Source of the DNA: Bradyrhizobium sp. 21
GTDB lineage: Bacteria; Pseudomonadota; Alphaproteobacteria; Rhizobiales; Xanthobacteraceae
Assembly (NCBI RefSeq): GCF_023073335.1
Contig: NZ_JADPJG010000035.1
Location: 577,879-641,878 of the forward strand
Length of the DNA stretch: 64,000 nt
Reading direction: 5' to 3'
Position 1 is the stretch's first letter. Each line of letters starts with the position of its first letter. Position numbers and translations under genes: made by a program. Shown piece by piece: positions 4,532 through 33,632 of the stretch. The notes beneath the pieces are model-generated. The model had not been told where the DNA came from. It did not search any database and saw only the letters and a list, made by a program, of their open reading frames with translations.

Positions 4532-5644
4532 ATGAGCGCCCTGTTTTCTCCGATCAAGCTGCGCGGCCTGACATTGAAGAACCGCATCGTGGTGTCGCCG
4601 ATGTGCCAGTATTCGGCCGACGACGGCGTTCCCACCGACTGGCACTTCACCCACATCAACAATCTCAGCCTGTCGGGGGCTGCGATGTTCTGCATCGAGG
4701 CGACCCATGTCGAGGCGATCGGCCGCATCACGCCGGGCTGTCTCGGGCTCTACAGCGATGCCGCCGAAGCCGCGCTGAAGCAGATCCTCACCTCGGTGCG
4801 CAAGCATTCCTCCACCGCGGTCGCGATGCAGCTCGCGCATGCCGGCCGCAAGGCCTCCAGCGCGCGCCCCTGGGACGGTGGACAGCTCATTCCAGTTGAC
4901 CAGGGCGGCTGGCGGACGGTGGCGCCGTCGGCGCTGCCGCACAAGGAGGGCGAGGCCGCGCCGCTGGCGCTCGACGCCGCCGGCCTCAAGCGCATCCGCG
5001 ACGCCTTCGTCGACTCTGCGAAACGCGCCGATCGCATCGGCATCGACGCCATCGAGCTGCATGGCGCGCACGGCTATCTCCTGCACCAGTTCCTGTCGCC
5101 GATCTCCAACAAGCGCACCGACGAATATGGCGGCTCGCTCGAGAACCGCATGCGCTTTCCGCTCGAAATCTACGACGCTGTCCGGGCGGTATTCCCGCGC
5201 GAAAAACCGGTGGGCATGCGGGTGTCGTCGACCGACTGGGTCGAGGGCGGCTGGGACCTAGCGCAGACCATCGCATTCGCCAACGCGCTGAAGGCGCGCG
5301 GCATCGACTGGATCGACGCCTCCTCCGGCGGCGTGTCGCCGCTGCAGAAGATCACGCTTGGCCCCGGCTATCAGGTGCAGTTCGCCGAGGCCATCAAGCG
5401 CGAGACCGGCTTGCCGACCATCGCCGTCGGCCTGATCACGGAGGGCAAGCAGGCCGAAGAGATCGTCGCATCGGGCAAGGCCGACATGGTCGCGCTCGCC
5501 CGCGGCATGCTCTACGACCCGCGCTGGGCCTGGCACGCCGCAGCCGAACTCGGCGGCGAGGTCGAAGCCCCGCCGCAATTCTGGCGCTCGCAGCCCTCGA
5601 CGCAGAAGGCGCTGTTCGGCAAGACCACGTTCGGGGCGAGGTGA
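4532..5644 (+). CDS. NADH:flavin oxidoreductase, Old Yellow Enzyme family (YqjM/xenobiotic reductase A-like)
   Basis: 370 residues from the ATG at 4532; the open frame runs on upstream without coding character. FMN-binding TIM-barrel signatures include NRIVVSPMCQYSADDG, with Cys25 at the position of the redox-tuning cysteine of the YqjM/XenA subclass, then HAGRKAS, IELHGAHGYLLHQFLSPISN and RTDEYGGSLENRMRFPLE, and DMVALARGMLYDPRWAWHAA near the C-terminus. These enzymes reduce activated C=C bonds of enones, maleimides or nitroesters with NAD(P)H. The physiological substrate is not evident. It lies downstream of the Baeyer-Villiger-type monooxygenase in the same orientation. Confidence 0.93.
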   Translation: MSALFSPIKLRGLTLKNRIVVSPMCQYSADDGVPTDWHFTHINNLSLSGAAMFCIEATHVEAIGRITPGCLGLYSDAAEAALKQILTSVRKHSSTAVAMQLAHAGRKASSARPWDGGQLIPVDQGGWRTVAPSALPHKEGEAAPLALDAAGLKRIRDAFVDSAKRADRIGIDAIELHGAHGYLLHQFLSPISNKRTDEYGGSLENRMRFPLEIYDAVRAVFPREKPVGMRVSSTDWVEGGWDLAQTIAFANALKARGIDWIDASSGGVSPLQKITLGPGYQVQFAEAIKRETGLPTIAVGLITEGKQAEEIVASGKADMVALARGMLYDPRWAWHAAAELGGEVEAPPQFWRSQPSTQKALFGKTTFGAR

Positions 5645-5771
5645 GGGGGGGCCTGCGAGTGGTGCGCTTTTTCGTCAACTCTCCCTCACGCATCCGTAAC
5701 TCTCCTCACCTTCCACCTCAGGCAAATCTGGCCTAACCTCGCGCGCATCCAACTCCTCGCGGAGGCCCGTC

Positions 5772-6179
5772 ATGCGGTTTCGTGTCCGGAAGGCTGCCCA
5801 CGTCATCGAGCGCGTGGGTCTGGCGATGGCAGGCGCGGCGTGCGGCCTGTTCGTCGGCGCCTATGTCGGATCTGCCATCCCCGCGCTCACCACGGAGGGG
5901 TTCCTGCTGCTGATGATGGTGCTGGGCTTCGTCGGCTTCTATCTCGGCATCGACACGCCGCAGCTTCCCTTCGACGAGGCGCACAGCGCCATCGATGCTG
6001 CGGAACTGCTGAGCGCCGCCGGCACGCTCTGCGCCACGCTCACCGCATTCGCCTCCGTCGCCATCATCGTATTGCGCCTCGAGCCGCATATCGCCTGGAG
6101 CTGGTTCGCTTTGTTCGGCTGGATCGCCGGCGTCGCGATGCAGATCGTCGCGGGCGCGAAAGCCAGGATGCGGAAGTAG
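5772..6179 (+). CDS. Small conserved membrane protein of unknown function
   Basis: 135 residues with about four hydrophobic helices: roughly 17-37, 44-59, 77-98 and 108-127. A short basic N-terminus (MRFRVRKAAHVIER) suggests a cytoplasmic start. I recognise no domain or catalytic motif. The ATG at 5772 follows CTCGCGGAGGCCCGTC, a good GGAG ribosome site. The gene is convergent with the PilZ gene; the gap between their stops holds the perfect palindrome at 6219-6264. Confidence 0.7.
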   Translation: MRFRVRKAAHVIERVGLAMAGAACGLFVGAYVGSAIPALTTEGFLLLMMVLGFVGFYLGIDTPQLPFDEAHSAIDAAELLSAAGTLCATLTAFASVAIIVLRLEPHIAWSWFALFGWIAGVAMQIVAGAKARMRK

Positions 6180-6218
6180 GTTCGGGTGAGGGGTGCACGG
6201 CCGTGCGTTAAATTCCGC

Positions 6219-6264
6219 CGTCGTCCTGGCCTAGTGCGCAATTGCGCACTAGGCCAGGACGACG
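6219..6264. repeat. Perfect 46-bp palindrome, intergenic repeat
   Basis: Positions 6219-6241 are exactly the reverse complement of 6242-6264 with no loop; the centre is TGCGCAATTGCGCA. The element sits between two convergent genes (stops at 6179 and 6279). The same core, CTAGTGCGCAATTGCGCAC, reappears in both arms of the larger repeat at 41149-41309, so it is a dispersed family and not only a local terminator. It could still fold as a bidirectional hairpin in RNA. Confidence 0.9.
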
Positions 6265-6278
6265 AAAGCGACAGGTGC

Positions 6279-6530
6279 CTAAAACACCACGCCCACCCGC
6301 GTCCCGCGCTTCCACGCGATGCGGCAGCGCTTTTTCGTGTTGACGTGCAGCAGCTCGAACCTGTCGGGAATCTTCACCTGCCCGCCGAGATCGACGCAGG
6401 CCCCGCCGGCCGAATAGTCGATCAGCGTGCAGACGATCACAGGCGCGCGCGGGTCGGTGATGATCTTGGCCTGGCGGGACACCAGGCCTGCGGGCTTCAC
6501 ACGGGCATGTCGGCGCGGATGCATTGGCAC
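6279..6530 (-). CDS. PilZ domain protein
   Basis: 83 residues, essentially one PilZ domain. The c-di-GMP-binding signature is recognisable: an N-terminal RRHARVKP segment (RxxxR type) and, about 30 residues on, IDYSAGGACVDL (the D/NxSxxG element). A beta-rich remainder ends RIAWKRGTRVGVVF. Single-domain PilZ proteins of this size are numerous in Bradyrhizobium and usually of unknown target. It is convergent with the membrane protein gene upstream and followed by a repeat element. Start at 6530 or the second Met three codons in. Confidence 0.82.
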   Translation of the reverse strand: MPMHPRRHARVKPAGLVSRQAKIITDPRAPVIVCTLIDYSAGGACVDLGGQVKIPDRFELLHVNTKKRCRIAWKRGTRVGVVF

Positions 6531-6677
6531 TCTCCTCCAATTCCGCGGACGGCGCGGTGGTCAGGGACGCGATCATGCAAAGGAGAAGATTCGATCCGGC
6601 TAAGGCGGGCCTGAGAATTTTAATGAAAAGTGTCGGCGAATGGAGAAAAGCGGCGGTAGCGGGGTGAGGCGGCGCTT

Positions 6678-6765
6678 CGTCATTGCGAGCGCAGCGAAGC
6701 AATCAAGACTGCCTCCGCGGAAAGACTCCTGGATTGCGTCGTCACAAGGGCTCCTCGCAATGACG
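6678..6765. repeat. Palindromic intergenic repeat (GTCATTGCGAG family)
   Basis: Begins CGTCATTGCGAGCGCAGCG and ends CTCCTCGCAATGACG; the outer ends are inverted repeats of one another and the interior contains AAGCAATC and GGATTGCGTCG as inner arms. The same family occurs at 33708-33793 and as a truncated piece at about 41119. It lies downstream of the DUF2235 gene. Confidence 0.8.
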
Positions 6766-6780
6766 AGGCCGGCCACCATC

Positions 6781-8115
6781 TCACCCCGCCACGATCTCCT
6801 CCGTCTCCGCCGCCACACCCGGCCGCACCGGCATCGGCACCGTCACATAATCCTTCGGCAAATTCACCGGCCGGTAGTCCGGCTCCACCGCCATCCGCTT
6901 CACCACGCTCTCATGCACATGCGCGCCTTCGGGGATGAGGCGCGGTTCGCAATCGGGGATGTAAAAGCCCAAAAACACCTTCCGCTCCGGCCATTCCTTG
7001 TATGTCGCGCGCTTCGGCAGATACTCCAGCACGCGCCAGAGCGCCGTCATCGAATTGTGCAGCTCGCCCACCTTGCCGGTGTATTCGGGCGGCACATACT
7101 GGAACGGCGAGTTCTTGCGCTGGACGCCCCAGGCGAGCTGGTTCACCGTGCGCGGGTTGAAGTTCAGCCCCGCCTTCGCCGCCTCCTCGATCATCCAGAT
7201 CAGCGGATATTTGGACTCGCCGCTCTCGGCCTCGGGATAACCGCCGCCGACGTCGCAATGCACGCCGGCGAACCACACCTGCAAGATGTCCTGCGGCTCC
7301 TTCTTCTCGTCGGGCACGTAGCGGTTGCGCCAATAGTCCTGCGGCTGCTCATACTCTTTGAGGCGAAACATGCAGCGCTGCTCGTCGATCGCGATCGCCT
7401 GGCGGAAGATGTTGACGCTGGGATTGCGCAGCGTGAAGGCGAGCTCCTCCAGGCTGAAGACGAGGAAGAAGACGTCGCGCCGCGGCACGATCACGCTCGC
7501 CACCGTGTCCCAGACGCCGATGAAGTGGATGGTCGGCCAGCGCGTCGAGGTGATGCGCGCGAACTGGGCGGCGAGATCGAATTGGTCTTTCGGCAGCGGC
7601 CCCTGCTCGTCGACGGCGATGTCCTTGAGGTCCTCGATGTCGTTGCCGCGCCCGGTGCCGGAATATTGCTTGTAGGCGACGAGGCCACTGCCCGCGAGGT
7701 TGGCCTGCTCCGGCGAGATCAGCCCAATTTTGTGGATCAGCCCCGCCAGCACGCGAACCGTGTAGGCACCGCGCGAAAAACCGAACAGATAGATCTTGTC
7801 GCCGGGCGCGTAGTGCTCGACCAGGAAGCAATAGGCCGAGAGCACGTTGTCATCGAGCCCGTAGCCGGTGGCTAGCCCCAGCACCAGATTGATATTGGCC
7901 TTGAGCCGGTGCCACGTCGACGGCTCCGTCACCGTGCCGACGCCCGGATCGTAAAACACCACCTGCCGCGGCGACGTCCTGTCGGTCTTGCGCAGGCAGC
8001 GATAGAGCTTCAGGACGTTGGAGATGTTCTCCGAGATCTCGTTGCCGGTGCCGTCACAGCAGATGACGAGGTTCTTCGGTGTGGTGTGGTGGTCGGTTTT
8101 GGGTTCGTACTCCAC
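6781..8115 (-). CDS. DUF2235 family alpha/beta-hydrolase-like protein
   Basis: 444 residues from a GTG start preceded by GGGAGGGG. The N-terminus KNLVICCDGTGNEI and the nucleophile elbow YLFGFSRGAYTVR (Ser114 in GFSRG, residues 112-116) are diagnostic of DUF2235, which includes the Tle1-type phospholipase effectors of type VI secretion. Further signatures are VWFAGVHCDVGGGYPE and SVIVPRRDVFF. No signal peptide and no VgrG, Hcp or immunity-like neighbour is visible, so a secreted effector role is not supported here; a cytoplasmic lipase or esterase is equally possible. A decayed copy of part of this gene lies at 10248-10390 in the same orientation. Confidence 0.88.
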   Translation of the reverse strand: MEYEPKTDHHTTPKNLVICCDGTGNEISENISNVLKLYRCLRKTDRTSPRQVVFYDPGVGTVTEPSTWHRLKANINLVLGLATGYGLDDNVLSAYCFLVEHYAPGDKIYLFGFSRGAYTVRVLAGLIHKIGLISPEQANLAGSGLVAYKQYSGTGRGNDIEDLKDIAVDEQGPLPKDQFDLAAQFARITSTRWPTIHFIGVWDTVASVIVPRRDVFFLVFSLEELAFTLRNPSVNIFRQAIAIDEQRCMFRLKEYEQPQDYWRNRYVPDEKKEPQDILQVWFAGVHCDVGGGYPEAESGESKYPLIWMIEEAAKAGLNFNPRTVNQLAWGVQRKNSPFQYVPPEYTGKVGELHNSMTALWRVLEYLPKRATYKEWPERKVFLGFYIPDCEPRLIPEGAHVHESVVKRMAVEPDYRPVNLPKDYVTVPMPVRPGVAAETEEIVAG

Positions 8116-9460: not shown

Positions 9461-9739
9461 ATGACGCTCACCAGCAGCCGCTTCATCGCCCACGACCAGG
9501 ACCGCGGCATCGTCCAGTTCTCGATGCAGGACGGCAGTAAGGAGATCGCCTGCGCGATCTCGACCTCCGCCATGGACGACCTCGAGCGCGGCCCGCGCGC
9601 CAGGCCCAGCGAGCGCGAAGAGCAGTTCACGCGCCTGCGCGAGCGCATCGAAGCCTGCACCGGACGCAAATATCAGGCGACGGAGTTCGAAGGCACGCCG
9701 CCGGGGATCGTGCTGCGGAGCATTGATTTTCGGGGGTAG
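9461..9739 (+). CDS. DUF1488 family protein
   Basis: 92 residues from the ATG at 9461 (AAAGGACCAGCCC upstream). The sequence DRGIVQFSMQDGSKEIACAIS followed by an Asp/Glu-rich helix (MDDLERGP... EREEQFTRLRERIE) and the end GIVLRSIDF matches the DUF1488 pattern of small cytoplasmic proteins. Function is unknown. The frame is open far upstream, through the repeat element, but that portion looks non-coding. Six bases after its stop the frameshifted gene at 9746 begins. Confidence 0.8.
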   Translation: MTLTSSRFIAHDQDRGIVQFSMQDGSKEIACAISTSAMDDLERGPRARPSEREEQFTRLRERIEACTGRKYQATEFEGTPPGIVLRSIDFRG

Positions 9740-9745
9740 GAATCG

Positions 9746-10211
9746 ATGGCCACCGTTTTTCTCCGGCTCCCGGTGCGGCTAAGGCGATTCAGTCCTGCCT
9801 GCACGAACTGGGCTACTCCGATGTGACGGTGTATTTCGTTGGAACAGCACCGCGGAACAATGTCGGAAGCTGGCCAACCCGAAACGTTGTTGTCGACGCG
9901 AAGCTGCAAGGACGGGAATTCTACGCGCGAGAGGACGGGAATTGGCGGAGGTCGCCGATCTCGGGTTCGTTCTATGGGATGGAAAGAGTTCCGGCTCGGT
10001 CCAGAACATGCTGTGGCTCCTGGCGCGAAAGAAGACAGTCGTCGTCCACTTCGCTCCCGAGAAGAAGTTCTACAACTTCAGGAGCGAGAACGAGTTGGTC
10101 AATCTTCTGAGCCGTTGCGACGGTGAAACGCTGAACGATCTTGATCGAAAAACTCCGCTCCCCGATCGTTTGAAGAAAGCAAACCGAACTCAGCAAGCAT
10201 TCAATCTTTAG
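9746..10211 (+). pseudogene. Frameshifted gene for a nucleotide-binding-like (SLOG/deoxyribosyltransferase-like) protein
   Basis: An ATG at 9746 reads MATVF. The continuation KAIQSCLHELGYSDVTVYF then runs in a different frame from about 9757 to 9940. The last part, DLGFVLWDGKSSGSVQNM followed by KKTVVVHFAPEKKFYNF, is in the third frame to the stop at 10211. Each switch is equivalent to one missing base: the first near the T run at 9756-9760, the second near 9936-9942. Joined, the three parts give one coherent Rossmann-like protein of about 155 residues. The WDGKSSGS segment resembles the substrate loop of SLOG/LOG or nucleoside 2-deoxyribosyltransferase folds. Decay or sequencing error are both possible. 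Confidence 0.7.
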
Positions 10212-10247
10212 ACGGCGATCGTGAGGAATTTGTGGTTCGGCCAATTG

Positions 10248-10390
10248 CGGGTGCGAGCCCAGCTCCGGATTAACGTTGGCCTTGAGCCGGTGCCGACGTC
10301 GCCAGCTCTGTTACCCTGCCGACCTCGAATTATAAAACATCATCTGCCGCGACTGCGTCTTTTCCGCCTTGCGCATGCAGGGATCGTGAG
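10248..10390 (-). pseudogene. Decayed fragment of a DUF2235 gene
   Basis: This non-coding stretch aligns along most of its length with 7875-8010, the N-terminal coding part of the intact DUF2235 gene. A 19-base run, TTGGCCTTGAGCCGGTGCC, is identical at 7895-7913 and 10276-10294, and roughly three quarters of the remaining positions match by eye. Orientation is the same as the intact gene. Indels break every frame. It ends just before the stop codon of the four-gene operon at 10398. Confidence 0.75.
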
Positions 10391-10397
10391 AAAGGGC

Positions 10398-11441
10398 CTA
10401 CTGGCTGCTATTTTGTTCGACAGGTGTAGTTTGGGTTGCGGGGGTAATTGATTTAGGGGTTCCCGGTCGTTGAGTGCTCCTCGCCGTGCCGGCGGTGACA
10501 TAATAGGGATAGAAATTCTGTTCCACCTGTCTCTGCAGAGACTTGTATCGATCTTTGTTAGTAGGTGAAGTCCCGTCTATATTCCGAGTATAAAATCGGC
10601 ATTTCTGCTCGCGACTCCATGAAGCAAGTCTATTTGTCGCGCTAAGGAACGAGCGTTCGTTTATCTCGGAGTTGCGAGGAAAATTACTTACCGCGGCCCA
10701 TGCAGGGTCTTGCGCGCGGGATGACGTGGCATCGCTTACCCGAACGCCGGAGTCGAGAAACGTAACATCAAAGATGAACTCGGTCTGGCCTGCGCTGTTT
10801 ATCCAGCAAGATGGATAGGATAATCCTTTTCCGCTGATCATTAGATTGTCCTTCTCTCTCCGCAGTTTCTCATTACTGACTTCAAGAGTTAAAACTTTTG
10901 ATGACAGCTCATTTGGAGGAAGCATCTCAGAAAGGGGCCGAACTTGCTCGGGTTCTGTTGATTTTCCCAATCGGGCCAGCACTTCGACTGCACGGTGAAG
11001 CGTCGCAGGCGGATCGCTCGGATCAATTTCTGCGGCGCGGCGCATCGTGGCAACCAATGCTCTTAGTTTGTCTTCACTCAAATCTAGTGACCTAACCAGC
11101 GATGATTGTTCTAGGAGCTTGGTGTTCTCTTCCTTCTGGACGGCAAGTTGTCTCTCTAGTTCGGTAAGCGTCTGAAAGCGTTGAATGAGCTGTTCGACGC
11201 TGGCTATTCCGTTAGCGCCTCCCGACATGAGAGCTTCCTGCAGAGGTTTCAGCTGGTCAAGGCTACGGCTCAACACCTCGAAGCGCGTCTCAGCTGCTTT
11301 TGCCAATGACTGCCAATGTTGAAGTTGGCTGGCGAGAGCAAGCAGGAGTAAGAACAGGAGCAGCAGGAGGATTTCTGCCAGCGTTAATCCGAGGACCAAG
11401 CCGCGCCGGTGTTCACGTTCGTCTGAAATGCGTGCGCTCAT
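10398..11441 (-). CDS. MotB/ExbD/ZorB-like membrane-anchored protein with periplasmic domain (operon gene 4)
   Basis: 347 residues. After a short charged N-terminus (MSARISDEREHRRG) there is one transmembrane helix, about 14-37, with an acidic residue (Glu23 in LAEILLLLL). This is the layout of the proton-carrying helix of MotB, ExbD and ZorB. A long helical, probably coiled-coil stalk follows, then a compact domain with YPSCWINSAGQTEFIFDVT and a second Cys in QKCRFYTRNIDGTS, and a Thr/Pro/Gln-rich tail. I see no OmpA-type peptidoglycan-binding domain. It is the last gene of the operon; the preceding gene ends 12 bases upstream. Stator-like function is inferred from the pairing with a MotA/ExbB-like protein. 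GC and codon use are lower than in the flanking DNA. Confidence 0.72.
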   Translation of the reverse strand: MSARISDEREHRRGLVLGLTLAEILLLLLFLLLLALASQLQHWQSLAKAAETRFEVLSRSLDQLKPLQEALMSGGANGIASVEQLIQRFQTLTELERQLAVQKEENTKLLEQSSLVRSLDLSEDKLRALVATMRRAAEIDPSDPPATLHRAVEVLARLGKSTEPEQVRPLSEMLPPNELSSKVLTLEVSNEKLRREKDNLMISGKGLSYPSCWINSAGQTEFIFDVTFLDSGVRVSDATSSRAQDPAWAAVSNFPRNSEINERSFLSATNRLASWSREQKCRFYTRNIDGTSPTNKDRYKSLQRQVEQNFYPYYVTAGTARSTQRPGTPKSITPATQTTPVEQNSSQ

Positions 11442-11453
11442 AAACCCTCCGTA

Positions 11454-12338
11454 CTATTGGCGCCGAAAAGGCCAATACCAGCGACGTTTCCTCCGCCCCA
11501 ATAGATCAATGGTCGCGGCAAGCTGATTCACCATCTCCTGCACGCGATCGCTAAAATCCAAGAGCCTATCATTCAAGTCGGTCGTCAATTGCTTCAGGCT
11601 ACGCTCGATTCGAGTAATGCCTTCATCCAATTCGTGGACCCGATCGCCTTCATTTGCGAAGGCCCGACCAATAGTCTGAGCTGCAGATTGTGCGGTAGTT
11701 CTGATGCTCGAGATTGCCTCTTGAGCGACCGAATTGGATTCTTCGGCTGTCTTTGCCGCGGCTTGCTTTACGCCAGTGTGGAAGGTCTCGAACTCAGCTA
11801 GCGCAAGACTCAGTTGGGCGCGAAGGTCTGCCGAAGCGGCCAACAAGTTTCTTCGTACTTCATCTTCAACATCATCGAGATCGCCTCGCATCTGCACAAA
11901 TAGGACGCGGCCAGCTACACCTATAATTGTTGTGAACAATGCTATTCCAAAGTTGCCCAGAAGGTCGTCGACCGAGGCGACCTTGCGGATCTGAATCTGC
12001 AGAAGAGCCGCAGAGAGGCTGGCCAGCGTGAATATAAAGCCAAGATAGTAGAAGTTGTCGCCTAGCCGATCAGGCCGCATGCGAACACGACGAAATCGGA
12101 AAGCAATAATTCCGTAAGCGATCATCAGCGTGACTGCGCCGATAGCGACAAAACTGCCATTGTAGTCTTGCAGCTTAAAAAAGAGGATTGCGGCAAAGCC
12201 GAGTATTGCAACTAGCGCGAAGAGACCCTTGTCGGGCATGTCATCAAAGAAGCGGCGTCGCGGCAGAAGTTGCTCTGCTCGATCCAATCGATTTTCGACG
12301 CTCGGTTTGCTCCCGTTTACGCCTTCTTCGCCATTCAT
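11454..12338 (-). CDS. MotA/ExbB/ZorA-like channel subunit (operon gene 3)
   Basis: 294 residues with four hydrophobic helices at about 38-55, 62-81, 96-115 and 127-148. The last two resemble the core pair of ExbB/TolQ/ZorA: YYLGFIFTLASLSAALL, a short loop, then NFGIALFTTIIGVAGRVLF, where the TT pair matches the Thr-rich third helix of ExbB. Residues 150-280 are a long charged helical region (DLDDVEDEVRRNLLAAS through ITRIERSLKQLTTDLNDRL), likely a cytoplasmic coiled-coil tail as in ZorA. The end is basic (RRKRRWYWPFRRQ). It is followed by the MotB-like gene, the usual order of such pairs. Family assignment rests on topology and motifs by eye, not on a search. Confidence 0.68.
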   Translation of the reverse strand: MNGEEGVNGSKPSVENRLDRAEQLLPRRRFFDDMPDKGLFALVAILGFAAILFFKLQDYNGSFVAIGAVTLMIAYGIIAFRFRRVRMRPDRLGDNFYYLGFIFTLASLSAALLQIQIRKVASVDDLLGNFGIALFTTIIGVAGRVLFVQMRGDLDDVEDEVRRNLLAASADLRAQLSLALAEFETFHTGVKQAAAKTAEESNSVAQEAISSIRTTAQSAAQTIGRAFANEGDRVHELDEGITRIERSLKQLTTDLNDRLLDFSDRVQEMVNQLAATIDLLGRRKRRWYWPFRRQ

Positions 12339-12353
12339 GTGTTCGCCGTTAAA

Positions 12354-13175
12354 TCATAGGGTTTCAATGCCTGTAAGATGTCCGCTAGAATCGGAGATTA
12401 GTTGTTCCCAAAATAGCTGGTGCCCCCGGTTCTGGATCGGGGTGCCTTTCCGTGTTGCCGAGAGGCGCAATAAGTAAAGAATATCGACGTCTGCGCCTTT
12501 GAGTTGTGGTTGCAGCGTCGACCATGCTGGCATTCGAGCCAGCTGCTGAAAATTGGGTTCGGCTTGAAATTGAGAATACAGGGTGGTGTGCTGAATCATG
12601 TCAGATATCATTGTTAAGCGAAGCGGAACTTGGCCGCGCTCAATGGAGCCAAACGAACTGATCGCAGCGGCCCTCAAGCTTTCCACGATAGGGGAGCTAT
12701 TTTCTTTTGATGCGCGGAGCAGCTCTGAGACGGTCTGATCAAGTACAGATGAAAACCGCCCCTCATAACGTTGCCGCATACGCTCGGGATTTTCTATCCA
12801 TTGGTTTGCTTCTGATGGTTTTCCTAATGCGCACAGCCGCAACTTCGGCTGGAGGACGTGAGTGCTGTCTCCCTGAAACGTATAGATATCGAAGCGCATC
12901 CCGAACGGGGCAGCTTCTTTGAGCTTTTCCACGGTTTGACGAATCCGTTGCGCCTGTTGATCTGTGATCGGATCGCTACGATCAAAGAGAAGGACATGGA
13001 TTGCAGTCGGGCCTGTCTTTGGACAATTGGTCTCGGCATCGAGTTGCGGACGTGTTTGCTTGATGTAGAAGAAGCCGCCTAGGAGAGCCGCCAGGACGGC
13101 CACGCCAAGTGCTGCAAGAAGTACTCCTTTGGCCGCGTCTGAATTGCCGCGGGAGCGTCGTCGACCGCTCGTCAT
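12354..13175 (-). CDS. Membrane-anchored vWA-like protein (operon gene 2)
   Basis: 273 residues. A basic start (MTSGRRRSRG) and one helix (about 17-37) anchor it, with the rest probably periplasmic. The body looks like a von Willebrand A fold. IHVLLFDRSDPIT (Asp65, Ser67) ends the first strand, SSPIVESLRAAA (160-170) sits where the second metal-site loop falls, and LRLTMISDMIQHT (Asp192) follows a strand. This gives a MIDAS-like set although not a canonical DxSxS. Two cysteines (51 and 115) could pair. The ATG overlaps the stop of the preceding gene as ATGA at 13172-13175, so translation is coupled. Partner and metal dependence are unknown. Confidence 0.7.
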   Translation of the reverse strand: MTSGRRRSRGNSDAAKGVLLAALGVAVLAALLGGFFYIKQTRPQLDAETNCPKTGPTAIHVLLFDRSDPITDQQAQRIRQTVEKLKEAAPFGMRFDIYTFQGDSTHVLQPKLRLCALGKPSEANQWIENPERMRQRYEGRFSSVLDQTVSELLRASKENSSPIVESLRAAAISSFGSIERGQVPLRLTMISDMIQHTTLYSQFQAEPNFQQLARMPAWSTLQPQLKGADVDILYLLRLSATRKGTPIQNRGHQLFWEQLISDSSGHLTGIETL

Positions 13176-14593
13176 TGGGATTGCATCCCAGTCGGGTGCG
13201 GATATTTGACGAGAAGCGCCTCATATTCTTCCAGGACGGCGCTACTTAGTCGCTGCAGATGGTACAACGCTGCGTTCGCGTCCAATTGTGGTGTCGGCGG
13301 TTCCGCGATGGCGGCATGTACGGCGGCCTCATTGAGGAAGCTTCGTGGGAGTCGCCAAGCCACGTCGAAATAGCTAGGAGCAGGGCTCTTCCGCTTTGAA
13401 ATATTTGCGTCGCGGTAACGCGACAGGAGTTGATTGATCGCTGCTTCGACGCTGTTCTCATATGCAGCGAAGGCCTCTAAAGCGGCGTTGCGCTCGGCGC
13501 GGACTTGCACCGCCTGCTGGGGGAAGAGGGGAATGCGTTGAGTTCCCGCCTTGATGGCGGTGACTGTCCTTTCTTTTATCTCATCGAGTTCGTCGAATAG
13601 ATCCGCGTGTTCATCGCTATAGTTCTTTCGAGCGTGAACGGCGCGGCGGTAGTACGCGCCATAGCGAGGATAGGGATCATCATTGGTATAGCCCTTCCAT
13701 ATTGCAGTTGAGGCTAACACTGCGCCAAGTCCGAACAGGTAGTATGAATTGACATCTGCAAGCTCGATAGGATGCCGCAAGAGAGTGTTGATGGCGGCGG
13801 GAAGTGCATTCTCTTCGCCTACAGTGCCGATTACGTCTCGATAGTGTGCGGCAAAGCCATGCAGGCCGATAAGAGCAGTGAGCCCTGCGAGCGAGAAAAT
13901 CAAACCGACAAATTTGATGAAGATGTTTTTGTGATTGATCCACCGCATTGGAAAGAGCCCAATGCTATAGGCAATGAGGACGTTTGCAAATGAGATGCCG
14001 ACAGCGGTAACGATTCCTCCAAGAAGCCCAAACTCTGAGCCCTTGGAGAAAAACACGCCGTTCATTCCTGCTTCGACGCTAATCAGCAAAACCAACAAGC
14101 CCATTGTAGTCAGGCGGTTGGATGGATCTCGGGCTGCCCTTCTAAGATTATTCCTTGTTTGAAATTCACGGAGTTCATCCCGAAAGGCAATATACGTCTC
14201 TCGGAGAGGACCTAATTCTGCTTCCGCGCGATGGTTGGCATCTCGAAGCTGCGTGAGAGTGTTTCGCGAGAGGAGCTGAATGTTTGCTAGTTCGGTCTGG
14301 ACAGAAAATTCTGCCAAACGCTGGGCATAGGCCCTGAGGTTGTTAAGCAGCTCGCTGCCGTGCCAAGTCCATTCACTTTCAATCGTGTGCGTAATCTGCT
14401 GTTCGATGGAGTCCAATGTCTTCGCATCCGAAGAAGGAAGCTCTTTCACGGCGCGCTCCGACGCTACGCCATCCAGATCTAGCCTCTTTGCGATAGCAGA
14501 GGTGTCAATCGGCCGAAGATAACCTTGCGCAGTCGCGGGGCTTTGTTCGCCTCTAATTGCGTCAGCCATCTTGCCGAACGCAGTTCTCCCCAT
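13172..14593 (-). CDS. Four-helix membrane protein with long cytoplasmic coiled regions (operon gene 1)
   Basis: 473 residues from the ATG at 14593, preceded by AGGGAG about 10 bases upstream. The frame stays open to 14746, but that would cross the rpmB terminator. Residues 60-155 are charged and helical. Transmembrane helices follow at about 161-182, 188-213, 225-250 and 282-299, containing SVEAGMNGVFFSKGSEFGLL and ISFANVLIAYSIGLF. A helical C-terminal half of about 170 residues is rich in Arg/Glu/Ala. I recognise no enzyme motif. As first gene of the tightly packed operon it probably forms a membrane scaffold with the vWA-like and MotA/MotB-like partners. Lower GC than flanking genes suggests transfer. 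Confidence 0.72.
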   Translation of the reverse strand: MGRTAFGKMADAIRGEQSPATAQGYLRPIDTSAIAKRLDLDGVASERAVKELPSSDAKTLDSIEQQITHTIESEWTWHGSELLNNLRAYAQRLAEFSVQTELANIQLLSRNTLTQLRDANHRAEAELGPLRETYIAFRDELREFQTRNNLRRAARDPSNRLTTMGLLVLLISVEAGMNGVFFSKGSEFGLLGGIVTAVGISFANVLIAYSIGLFPMRWINHKNIFIKFVGLIFSLAGLTALIGLHGFAAHYRDVIGTVGEENALPAAINTLLRHPIELADVNSYYLFGLGAVLASTAIWKGYTNDDPYPRYGAYYRRAVHARKNYSDEHADLFDELDEIKERTVTAIKAGTQRIPLFPQQAVQVRAERNAALEAFAAYENSVEAAINQLLSRYRDANISKRKSPAPSYFDVAWRLPRSFLNEAAVHAAIAEPPTPQLDANAALYHLQRLSSAVLEEYEALLVKYPHPTGMQSQ

Positions 14594-14709
14594 GTCGCTG
14601 TCGCTCCCTGCGCGTTTTCCAAGCAAAAGCCTATCATAAAACCCGCAGTTGCAAGTGGGTCCGCTGGGAGACCTTAGTATCCCCTGCACGCGGGGCGCGA
14701 TGTTACTAG

Positions 14710-14743
14710 AAACAAAAACGGCCGGATCTTCCGATCCGGCCGT
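14710..14743 (-). terminator. Rho-independent terminator of rpmB
   Basis: An 11-bp perfect stem, ACGGCCGGATC at 14718-14728 pairing with GATCCGGCCGT at 14733-14743, encloses the tetraloop TTCC. Read on the minus strand the stem is followed by TTTTTGTT. It lies about 70 bases past the rpmB stop and about 120 bases upstream of the first gene of the accessory operon, insulating the two. Confidence 0.88.
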
Positions 14744-14815
14744 CACGCAAAACTTGATCCAACTAAGCCTACGGCACGCGACGCAACCTAGCCTCCGTCA
14801 AATTCGAAAACCTGC

Positions 14816-15127
14816 TTAGCTCGCCTTCTTCGCCGGCGCGGGCGTCGGGCCGACCTTCTTCTGGATGGCGCGCTTCAGCTCGAGGGCGCGCGGCGACAGC
14901 AGGTCGGACTTGGCCTTGAGCAGGAAGGGGTCGAGGCCGCCATTGTGGTCGACGCTCTTGACCGCGTTGGTGGAGACGCGCAGGCGCACGTTGCGGCCCA
15001 GGGCTTCGCTGATGAAGGTCACGTTGACCAGGTTCGGCAGGAAGCGGCGCTTGGTCTTGATGTTGGAGTGGCTGACCTTGTTCCCGACGAGGGGGCCCTT
15101 GGCCGTCAGTTCGCAGCGGCGAGACAT
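14816..15127 (-). CDS. rpmB: 50S ribosomal protein L28
   Basis: 103 residues starting [20 protein letters not shown], with [13 protein letters not shown] and the ending [14 protein letters not shown], the alphaproteobacterial L28 pattern; its length is usual for the group. It is a component of the large ribosomal subunit. The ATG at 15127 begins the conserved domain, and the longer open frame upstream is discarded. A consensus-like promoter lies at 15221-15249 and a strong terminator at 14710-14743, so it is a single-gene transcription unit. Confidence 0.97.
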
Positions 15128-15292: not shown

Positions 15293-15395
15293 TGTCATCG
15301 CCCGCGCAGGCGGGCGATCCAGTATTCCACCGACAGCGCGGCTGGAGTCGAGGGGCCGCGGCGTACTGGATGCCCCGCCTTCGCGGGGCATGACA
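15293..15395. repeat. Palindromic intergenic repeat (TGTCATCGCCCG family, copy 1)
   Basis: Starts TGTCATCGCCCGCGCAGG and ends CCTTCGCGGGGCATGACA. Each arm contains its own hairpin (GCCCGCGCAGGCGGGC; GCCCCGCCTTCGCGGGGC), and the two arms are also complementary to one another through GATCCAGTA and TACTGGATG. A second copy with a different stem sequence but the same architecture is at 16929-17032. Confidence 0.85.
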
Positions 15396-15587
15396 GCGGA
15401 GTGGGTCGGGCGAGCTGCGCGCTCCTGACACACGTCCGATCACCAAAACGGCAATGTTTGTCGCGCCTTACCATCACATAAAGGGCGTATTCGCGCCCGA
15501 AAAGTCCGGTGGAGTTCCGGGGCTGACATGCCCGGACACATTGTTTGCCGCGGTTTTTTGCTTAAGTAACAACCGTTCGCGCCCCGA

Positions 15588-32858: not shown

Positions 32859-33632
32859 TTAGGGCCTTACCCCTGTCGGCTCGTTTGCGCCCAGCAACTC
32901 GATTTGTCCCACGAGGCGTAAATCGATACGCGGCCCCGCATTCCCCTCAGCCCAGCCCCGGACACGAATACGTTTATTTTCCAGAGACTTAAGGGCGATC
33001 CCGGCGCTTTCGAACGCGGGTACCATGCGCTTTGAAATAGTCACGGCAAAGCCGCGTGTCCAGTTCCGTCCGAAGTTGAGGTAGGTCATTGCCCCAGCTT
33101 GCCGGACCGACAGGACTTTGCCCTCGACCACCACAAAACGCCCGATCCCCGCCAAAATATCGTCCGGACTTTCCGCGTTTTTTATGGCCGACGGGTCAGC
33201 CCAGTTGCCCTTTTTTTCGCGCCGCGCCTCGGCCTCCGACGTCATCAGGGCGGCCGCGCAATCCTTGTCGGCGATCTCGGCGGAGACGATGGCCTCGCCC
33301 TGGGCGAGCAGAGTCGCCTGCACGGAGATGTCACTCTCGCCGACAAAGACCAGCGCGCCTTGCCGGCCGTAGCGGTCGGGCGTGCCGTCAGCGCTCCGCA
33401 GAATCACGTCGCGGCCGACGAGCAGCGAGGTCAGCGCCTGCTTCGTCGTCGCCGTGGCCTCAATGCCGGTGAGGCGGACTTCGCGGCCGTCATCGAGACG
33501 CACACTGCGTGCGTCGACGATTGCCGCGACGCGGCCTTCACCTTGCAACTCGAACTGGCACGGGTTCGCGAATGCGCTGTGACCCGCGACGAGGAGAAAT
33601 GCGACAAGGATGAGGTGAGGCCGTTGCGTCAC
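32859..33632 (-). CDS. Secreted nuclease-like protein (thermonuclease/SNase fold)
   Basis: 257 residues from a GTG at 33632, chosen because it gives the signal peptide VTQRPHLILVAFLLVAGHSA with cleavage near AFA. The longer open frame runs through a repeat element and is not plausible. GEGRVAAIVDARSVRLDDGR and VRLTGIEA, then PDRYGRQGALVFVGESD, fit the OB-type SNase domain. The catalytic Arg/Glu set is not clearly complete, so nuclease activity is unsure. The C-terminal 100 residues form a second domain, ending NAGPRIDLRLVGQIELLGAN. It is 27 bases upstream of the M48 gene and probably co-transcribed with it. Confidence 0.78.
   Translation of the reverse strand: MTQRPHLILVAFLLVAGHSAFANPCQFELQGEGRVAAIVDARSVRLDDGREVRLTGIEATATTKQALTSLLVGRDVILRSADGTPDRYGRQGALVFVGESDISVQATLLAQGEAIVSAEIADKDCAAALMTSEAEARREKKGNWADPSAIKNAESPDDILAGIGRFVVVEGKVLSVRQAGAMTYLNFGRNWTRGFAVTISKRMVPAFESAGIALKSLENKRIRVRGWAEGNAGPRIDLRLVGQIELLGANEPTGVRP

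Follow-up and report, generated by a model that had tools for sequence, protein, structure and literature searches.

A conserved four-gene operon around a ZorAB-like motor pair is a probable undescribed defence system of Alphaproteobacteria

Introduction

Flagellar-type motors can serve immunity, as the Zorya systems illustrate. Whether a further operon uses a motor in this way is the question raised by a locus of Bradyrhizobium sp. 21, in a stretch of 64,000 nucleotides (the window; all positions count from its first letter) that carries four closely packed minus-strand genes, here called A to D. A preliminary description of this DNA, made from the letters alone, had taken the quartet for an accessory operon encoding a stator-like membrane complex. 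We find that the quartet is a real, conserved and patchily distributed four-gene unit. It is probably a hitherto undescribed system of protection from viruses or foreign DNA of other kinds, because it combines an apparent motor with a frequently adjacent gene for a secreted nuclease and lies in a slot that holds anti-virus systems in relatives. We favour, with more confidence than doubt, the explanation that the operon encodes a mobile accessory system of defence whose core is a ZorAB-type 5:2 rotary motor driven by ions. No publication describing the quartet was found in the open-licence PubMed Central literature. The four genes are as follows, in transcription order.

13172 to 14593, minus strand: gene A, 473 amino acids; long helical N- and C-terminal parts, three to four predicted membrane segments, no known family
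12354 to 13175, minus strand: gene B, 273 amino acids; N-terminal membrane helix and a vWA domain
11454 to 12338, minus strand: gene C, 294 amino acids; ZorA-like channel subunit, four predicted membrane helices, coiled tail
10398 to 11441, minus strand: gene D, 347 amino acids; MotB/ZorB-like anchor, membrane Glu23

The four genes form one conserved unit

All four open reading frames (ORFs) are intact in the ORF list and its translations. A and B share 4 bases, and gaps of 15 and 12 bases separate B from C and C from D, exactly as the preliminary description had it. A scan of genome contigs with C found 228 relatives; the best 80, not all of them independent of each other, were kept for counting. 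The order A-B-C-D, with all genes in the same direction, was present in 77 of these best 80 loci. Two of the remaining three end at a contig edge inside C, and in the third B is split in two. The first loci inspected had given the same order in 17 of 17. The proposal that the genes belong together thus holds beyond the window.

A search seeded with B and made over 337 genomes of the class found loci in 16, including that of the window, and in the best 10 (the window being one) A preceded B in all ten and C followed B in nine. In the family, 12 of the 296 genomes, again counting the window's own, had relatives of A, which also occurred in 24 of 72,556 plasmid records, from Rhizobium, Paracoccus, Sinorhizobium, Microvirga and Tistrella. 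Used as a profile, A found 10 of 398 genomes of the phylum, every one in the window's class or closer. C had no match in phage records; two cassettes were found in viral contigs, both with a gene for a staphylococcal nuclease (SNase). The quartet spans several families of Alphaproteobacteria and their plasmids, often tied to a secreted-type nuclease.

C and D resemble the motor pair of Zorya

The aligned membrane part of C was compared by hhalign with sets of known channel subunits. Against a reference of five ZorA proteins it gave an E value of 3.4e-4 over 91 columns, at a modest hhalign probability of 38%. The sets for TolQ, ExbB, PomA and MotA were unmatched (E 0.36, 0.43, 0.098 and 0.034, respectively), which ruled out C as a Tol, Ton or flagellar subunit. 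The profiles of A and B gave E values of 0.011 and 0.28 with the same ZorA set. In the alignment of C with ZorA, the GFxFT and TTI.G motifs of C pair with GILGTF and TSIVG of ZorA.

The AlphaFold2 model of C (predicted local distance difference test, pLDDT, 79) consists of four membrane helices followed by a long tail with helices at residues 154-226 and 231-287; the tail is longer still in most relatives. The best natural structure for this model was a type II ZorA (8vvi_C; Z score 9.8, root-mean-square deviation 2.7 over 96 residues, 19% identity), followed by another ZorA (Z 9.3), ExbB (9.0) and TolQ (8.8). Profile and structure comparison concur in the register of C and ZorA, and the ZorA-aligned part of C is preceded by an additional membrane helix. 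T104 was conserved in 93 of 93 sequences and T137 in 92, the remaining one being unread. The earlier assignment of C to the MotA/ExbB/ZorA-like channel subunits is borne out by the fit of the model to ZorA, ExbB and TolQ; profile match and predicted structure together argue, with moderate strength, for a resemblance to ZorA in particular.

Family searches added little. Scans of C with Pfam, PADLOC, NCBIfam and PHROGs returned coiled-coil matches, weak ZorA matches and MotA_ExbB at an E value of 0.7 only; the PADLOC matches comprised weak ZorA models, partly on coiled coil, besides LeoA and PDC-M40C. MotA_ExbB was not among the best 25 of the 67 Pfam families listed for 18 relatives of C, and a sequence search of the PDB with C returned coiled-coil noise. 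The NCBIfam ZorA model matched nothing in 299 genomes, controls included, so this search is uninformative.

D matched ZorB with an E value of 1.4e-8, through its OmpA part; the membrane helix alone gave 0.037. Both OmpA motifs were recognized in 85 of 87 D sequences, Pfam placed an OmpA domain in 13 of 18 D relatives, and weak matches to PomB and MotB were seen for D and its relatives in the PDB sequence search and over the wall-binding domains. D itself obtained no usable family from Pfam, PADLOC, NCBIfam or PHROGs. D had been described as a MotB/ExbD/ZorB-like anchor with a periplasmic domain of its own. The first part stands on the OmpA domains of the relatives and the ZorB match; as a typical anchor the window's protein does not qualify, its C-terminal domain being atypical. 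That domain had no match in other genomes (299 searched) or in plasmids, and both OmpA motifs are absent from the window's D and from that of locus L020. Taken together, C and D would be a ZorAB-type motor pair.

The quartet is not a Zorya by the defining features

According to PMC11890865, Zorya defence needs the aspartate of ZorB, the wall-binding domain and the tail of ZorA, and a ring of serine and threonine residues faces the aspartate. The quartet shares with Zorya a channel subunit of the ZorA type, in which Thr/Ser positions are conserved and a putative cytosolic tail is present; an anchor of the ZorB type, which in most D relatives carries a wall-binding domain; accessory genes in the operon; and a mobile, defence-slot location. 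It differs in the membrane residue of the anchor, which in all 87 unique D sequences is Glu23 where ZorB has Asp (helices aligned by eye), in the extra N-terminal membrane helix of C, in the recurrent additional SNase gene, in the lack of OmpA motifs in the window's D, and in A and B, which are unrelated to the ZorC, ZorD, ZorE, ZorF and ZorG models. By aspartate, OmpA domain (in the window's D) and partner genes, the quartet is not a Zorya.

It might still be a new Zorya type, a ZorAB machine in which A and B replace ZorC and ZorD, ZorE, or ZorF and ZorG. C is nearest to ZorA and D to ZorB, the tail of C is long, and motor and accessory genes share one operon; Zorya III likewise exchanges its partner genes, as stated in PMC8565338. 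We regard this as quite unlikely in view of the invariant glutamate, the extra helix of C, the weak and partly coiled-coil nature of its PADLOC ZorA matches, and the PADLOC scan, in which none of the four proteins matched a ZorC to ZorG model. The earlier statement that the known Zorya effectors ZorC, ZorD and ZorE are missing was therefore right, as was the statement that TonB and TolA are: the four proteins match neither of these two models.

With Tol-Pal, Ton and flagellar stators the quartet has in common a channel of the MotA/ExbB/TolQ type and an anchor of the MotB/ExbD/TolR type. Unlike those systems, its C profile is unmatched by TolQ, ExbB, PomA and MotA, and, in distinction from Tol-Pal and Ton, the cassette contains no TolA, TonB, TolB or Pal.

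B carries a vWA domain and A is a family-less membrane protein

The structure model of B (pLDDT 88) has the fold of a vWA domain. Foldseek matched it to BatB-type proteins with an E value of 8e-5, and comparison with many vWA domains gave Z scores of 11-12 over 150-180 residues, the top being 12.1 over 155 residues. The B profile matched vWA domains of the same genus at E 0.0018, in the register seen in the structure, whereas six control profiles gave at least 0.21. Foldseek and the Z scores of about 12 thus uphold the view of B as a membrane-anchored vWA-like protein. D65-x-S/T67-D68 and D192 take the metal-site positions; the three aspartates are conserved, and with them the domain is a putative metal binder. 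Because C51 and C115 are conserved in 87 and 88 of 88 sequences, with one gap, a C51-C115 disulfide in the periplasm is suggested; we judge B to be anchored in the membrane with its vWA domain on the periplasmic side. No usable family was obtained for B from Pfam, PADLOC, NCBIfam or PHROGs, nothing was found by sequence search of the PDB, and Pfam on 18 relatives of B did not list VWA.

A had been described as a four-helix membrane protein with long coiled regions. In a simple hydropathy scan three membrane segments were clear (residues 163-181, 188-206 and 223-241) and a fourth, near 283-301, was weaker. The long helical N- and C-terminal parts are probably cytosolic, judging by charge. Within the first membrane segment, E174 and N178 (window 14058-14072) are kept in at least 97% of 95 relatives and could take part in ion flow. 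A, too, had no usable family in the Pfam, PADLOC, NCBIfam and PHROGs scans and no PDB match by sequence.

The vWA domain brings in an alternative that involves no defence, namely an envelope force transducer in which C and D are the motor and B passes force through the periplasm. PMC12204202 presents vWA proteins beside tolQ- and tolR-like genes as likely force transducers, and a membrane-anchored periplasmic vWA protein next to motor genes is what the two arrangements share. The wall-binding domains of D relatives would suit such a role, as would the occurrence of the cassette next to ordinary genes. Both marks of that family are missing from B, however: the SHLS motif is found in 0 of 88 sequences and an acidic residue in the membrane helix in only 1 of 88. 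The quartet further differs in its separate MotB-like D and in the match of C to ZorA and not TolQ, and its patchiness, its presence on plasmids, low GC content, defence slot and SNase link are ill-suited to a housekeeping function. We consider a force transducer improbable.

A nuclease gene recurs beside related operons

For the neighbour analysis, 97 loci were reduced to 58 clusters at 90% identity of A, of which 51 have 1.5 kb on both sides. In the first neighbour count SNase was the largest recurrent family, with 24 of 58 clusters; the next families reached 8, 6 and 4. With a better SNase model, 31 of the 51 two-flank clusters, and 32 of 58 overall, had the gene within 1.5 kb, one of the seven clusters left out of the former count having it as well. 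It lies upstream in the same direction in 19 clusters, downstream in the opposite direction in 6, downstream in the same direction in 4 (including L023, where it is fused to D) and upstream in the opposite direction in 3, and it is within 100 bases of the cassette in 20. In L260 the D and SNase matches share an open frame, which may be a second fusion, and in L261 SNase follows D. The background, counted in the window's family only, was 102 SNase hits in 41 genomes, or a chance of about 0.2% per such stretch, and rules out a chance link. On a tree of A the SNase label changed 13 times, against 17.0 for shuffled labels, so that the link has been gained or lost repeatedly.

Of the 31 SNase proteins that could be tested, 26 have a hydrophobic segment ahead of the domain (13 others were not testable). 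Among 42 sequences the motif R..GIDAPE was present in 38, DGDT in 32 and the third motif, as we patterned it, in 21. An SNase fused to the C-terminus of D would sit in the periplasm if the predicted topology is right. A weak Pfam SNase match does occur in the window at 33195-33446 (minus strand); it is about 19 kb distant from the cassette and probably represents a gene of its own.

PMC13190303 describes SNIPE, a nuclease bound to the membrane that cleaves phage DNA as it is injected. The likeness would lie in the cutting of DNA at the envelope on entry; the difference is that the opening of the abstract mentions no motor. The favoured explanation also departs from SNIPE in the nuclease itself, whose family we assume to be distinct from SNase. 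A DUF4041 gene near the L019 cassette is, we presume, a member of the SNIPE family.

The operon occupies a variable slot

The chromosomal setting was examined by comparison with 15 relatives, using matches of at least 180 bases and E values of at most 1e-20. The features around the quartet are as follows.

9741 to 14709: variable segment of 4,969 bases that fills the slot, with borders set by homology to relatives
14717 to 14744, minus strand: terminator-like hairpin at the right slot border, belonging to the ribosomal-protein gene
14816 to 15127, minus strand: right neighbour gene, presumably ribosomal protein L28 (rpmB), named by eye
9461 to 9739, plus strand: left neighbour, a short conserved ORF that ends at the left slot border and that we take to be DUF1488-like

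Homology to the relatives ends exactly at 9740 in 7 of 15 and restarts exactly at 14710, beside the hairpin, in 11 of 15. The 7 relatives with the exact left border have slots of 1.6 to 7.2 kb. We scanned 37 ORFs from nine slots (L228 and L234 without an exact left border), and the matches listed include the Lamassu genes LmuA, LmuB (two) and LmuC, an RT-Toprim defence reverse transcriptase and PDC-S21. One LmuB is in L226, and the reverse transcriptase is probably in L229, to judge by a YVDD motif. Pfam found a SIR2-like protein, an Eco57I methylase and AAA ATPases in these slots, alongside ordinary families such as FtsZ. Around the relatives' own cassettes, 145 of 169 chosen ORFs were scanned (21 exceeded the residue limit and 3 were unlisted), SNase genes having been excluded beforehand; RmrA, MTase_II, SduA, AbiEii, AriA and PDC-S46 were among the matches listed. 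The 101 control ORFs gave three matches, all to one generic model.

The preliminary description had read low GC content and decayed neighbours as a hint of mobile or defence-related DNA. The GC content of the quartet genes, 51.5-53.2%, is indeed below the 63.8% of the whole window. The decay amounts to one small-protein gene at 9823-10211, within the slot, that survives as a frame-shifted remnant; by eye it resembles the SLOG/LOG nucleotide-binding family and is perhaps a decayed defence gene. The defence part of the hint gains support from the gene content of slot and neighbourhoods, which points in that direction.

Defence need not mean defence against phages. The cassette might block conjugation or DNA uptake, or act in plasmid entry exclusion. 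This would agree with the 24 plasmid records, with an A-B pair in L256 that by eye lies beside conjugation-like genes, and with a periplasmic nuclease, which would meet any incoming DNA. Many copies are chromosomal, however, and the slot of the window is one common to antiphage systems, so we hold this alternative to be rather remote.

Weighing of the favoured explanation

Several results weigh against a mobile defence system around a ZorAB-type motor. The ZorA match of C is modest, as said; C was unmatched by a merged set of ZorA with TolQ, ExbB, PomA and MotA (E 0.35), four designed helical proteins scored slightly above ZorA for its model, and Foldseek of the model had TolQ on top at an E value of only 0.06. 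D has the glutamate for the aspartate of ZorB, and the window's D is without OmpA motifs. In the window the SNase model had no match, so that this copy in its present form falls outside the SNase part of the explanation. The tree of A groups the window and L020 on a deep branch together with two Paracoccus loci (L015 and L016), all four lacking SNase; long branches make the join with the Paracoccus loci uncertain. Ordinary genes also adjoin the relatives' cassettes (ABC transporters and regulators by Pfam, among the matches listed), the generic PADLOC models mad3 and mad8 are among the neighbour matches, and the controls are what was left of 145 ORFs after removal of 44 at the slot itself, with orthologues of a few related genomes repeating. 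Finally, four weaker B matches (L253, L255, L258 and L259) are A-B pairs with no convincing C or D in the stretch examined.

In this weaker set the A matches range from E 0.008 to 3e-68, some being weak. The best C match in L258 had an E value of 0.049 only, and in L256 and L257 the sole C match (E 0.003) falls on the A gene itself. In L254, A and B are accompanied by a C-like gene (E 2e-5) and by one that resembles D by eye. Because A-B pairs occur without recognizable C and D, A-B may be the older core to which the motor was added later. At 1940-4506 of L259, caspase-like and FGE-sulfatase-like genes, recognized by eye, adjoin the motor-less pair.

The lack of SNase near the window's cassette also bears on the possibility that this copy is a relic that no longer works. 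A D whose C-terminal domain is unlike that of relatives, and matchless in the genome and plasmid searches, would fit a relic, as would the broken ORF next to the cassette. We think it unlikely: the four ORFs are intact, the key residues of B, C and D are retained, and L020, whose A is 63% identical to that of the window, holds the same gene order and the same kind of D.

Proposed mode of action

In the defence system that we favour, the channel would consist of five C subunits and the axle of two D subunits, and the glutamate of D and the threonines of C would carry the ions. In most relatives D would also bind the cell wall. B, with its vWA domain in the periplasm, and A, with its helices in the cytosol, would act as sensor and relay when the envelope is disturbed, for example by the injection of DNA or by conjugation. 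The effector in over half of the related loci would be the secreted SNase, cutting DNA in the periplasm. For the subgroup of the window, the candidate effectors are the cytosolic part of A and the unusual C-terminal domain of D.

The known Zorya effectors act on DNA in the cytosol. That a rotary motor and a periplasmic vWA sensor switch on a secreted nuclease, so that entering DNA is destroyed in the periplasm, is a tentative proposal which we put forward with more doubt than belief. If true, periplasmic nuclease defence would be a new principle beside Zorya, and the operon a testable case of defence in the periplasm. If the defence function is true, motor-driven immunity would be a wider class, to which the quartet adds a second and separate motor system with a vWA partner.

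Additional observations

Two further neighbour families recur around the relatives' cassettes. A small SH3-domain protein that looks secreted and is Cys-rich at its end is encoded within 170 bases of the cassette in L028, L069, L073 and L090, in varied orientation. Another family occurs in L056, L061, L064, L071, L078 and L092, and Pfam assigned DUF4236 in five ORFs. In L015, a VgrG gene (type VI secretion tip gene) is annotated at 4992-7079, just ahead of the cassette of Paracoccus aminovorans. In the window, a dispersed repeat of about 105 bases lies at 15293-15402 and has many copies in each Bradyrhizobium-like genome searched.

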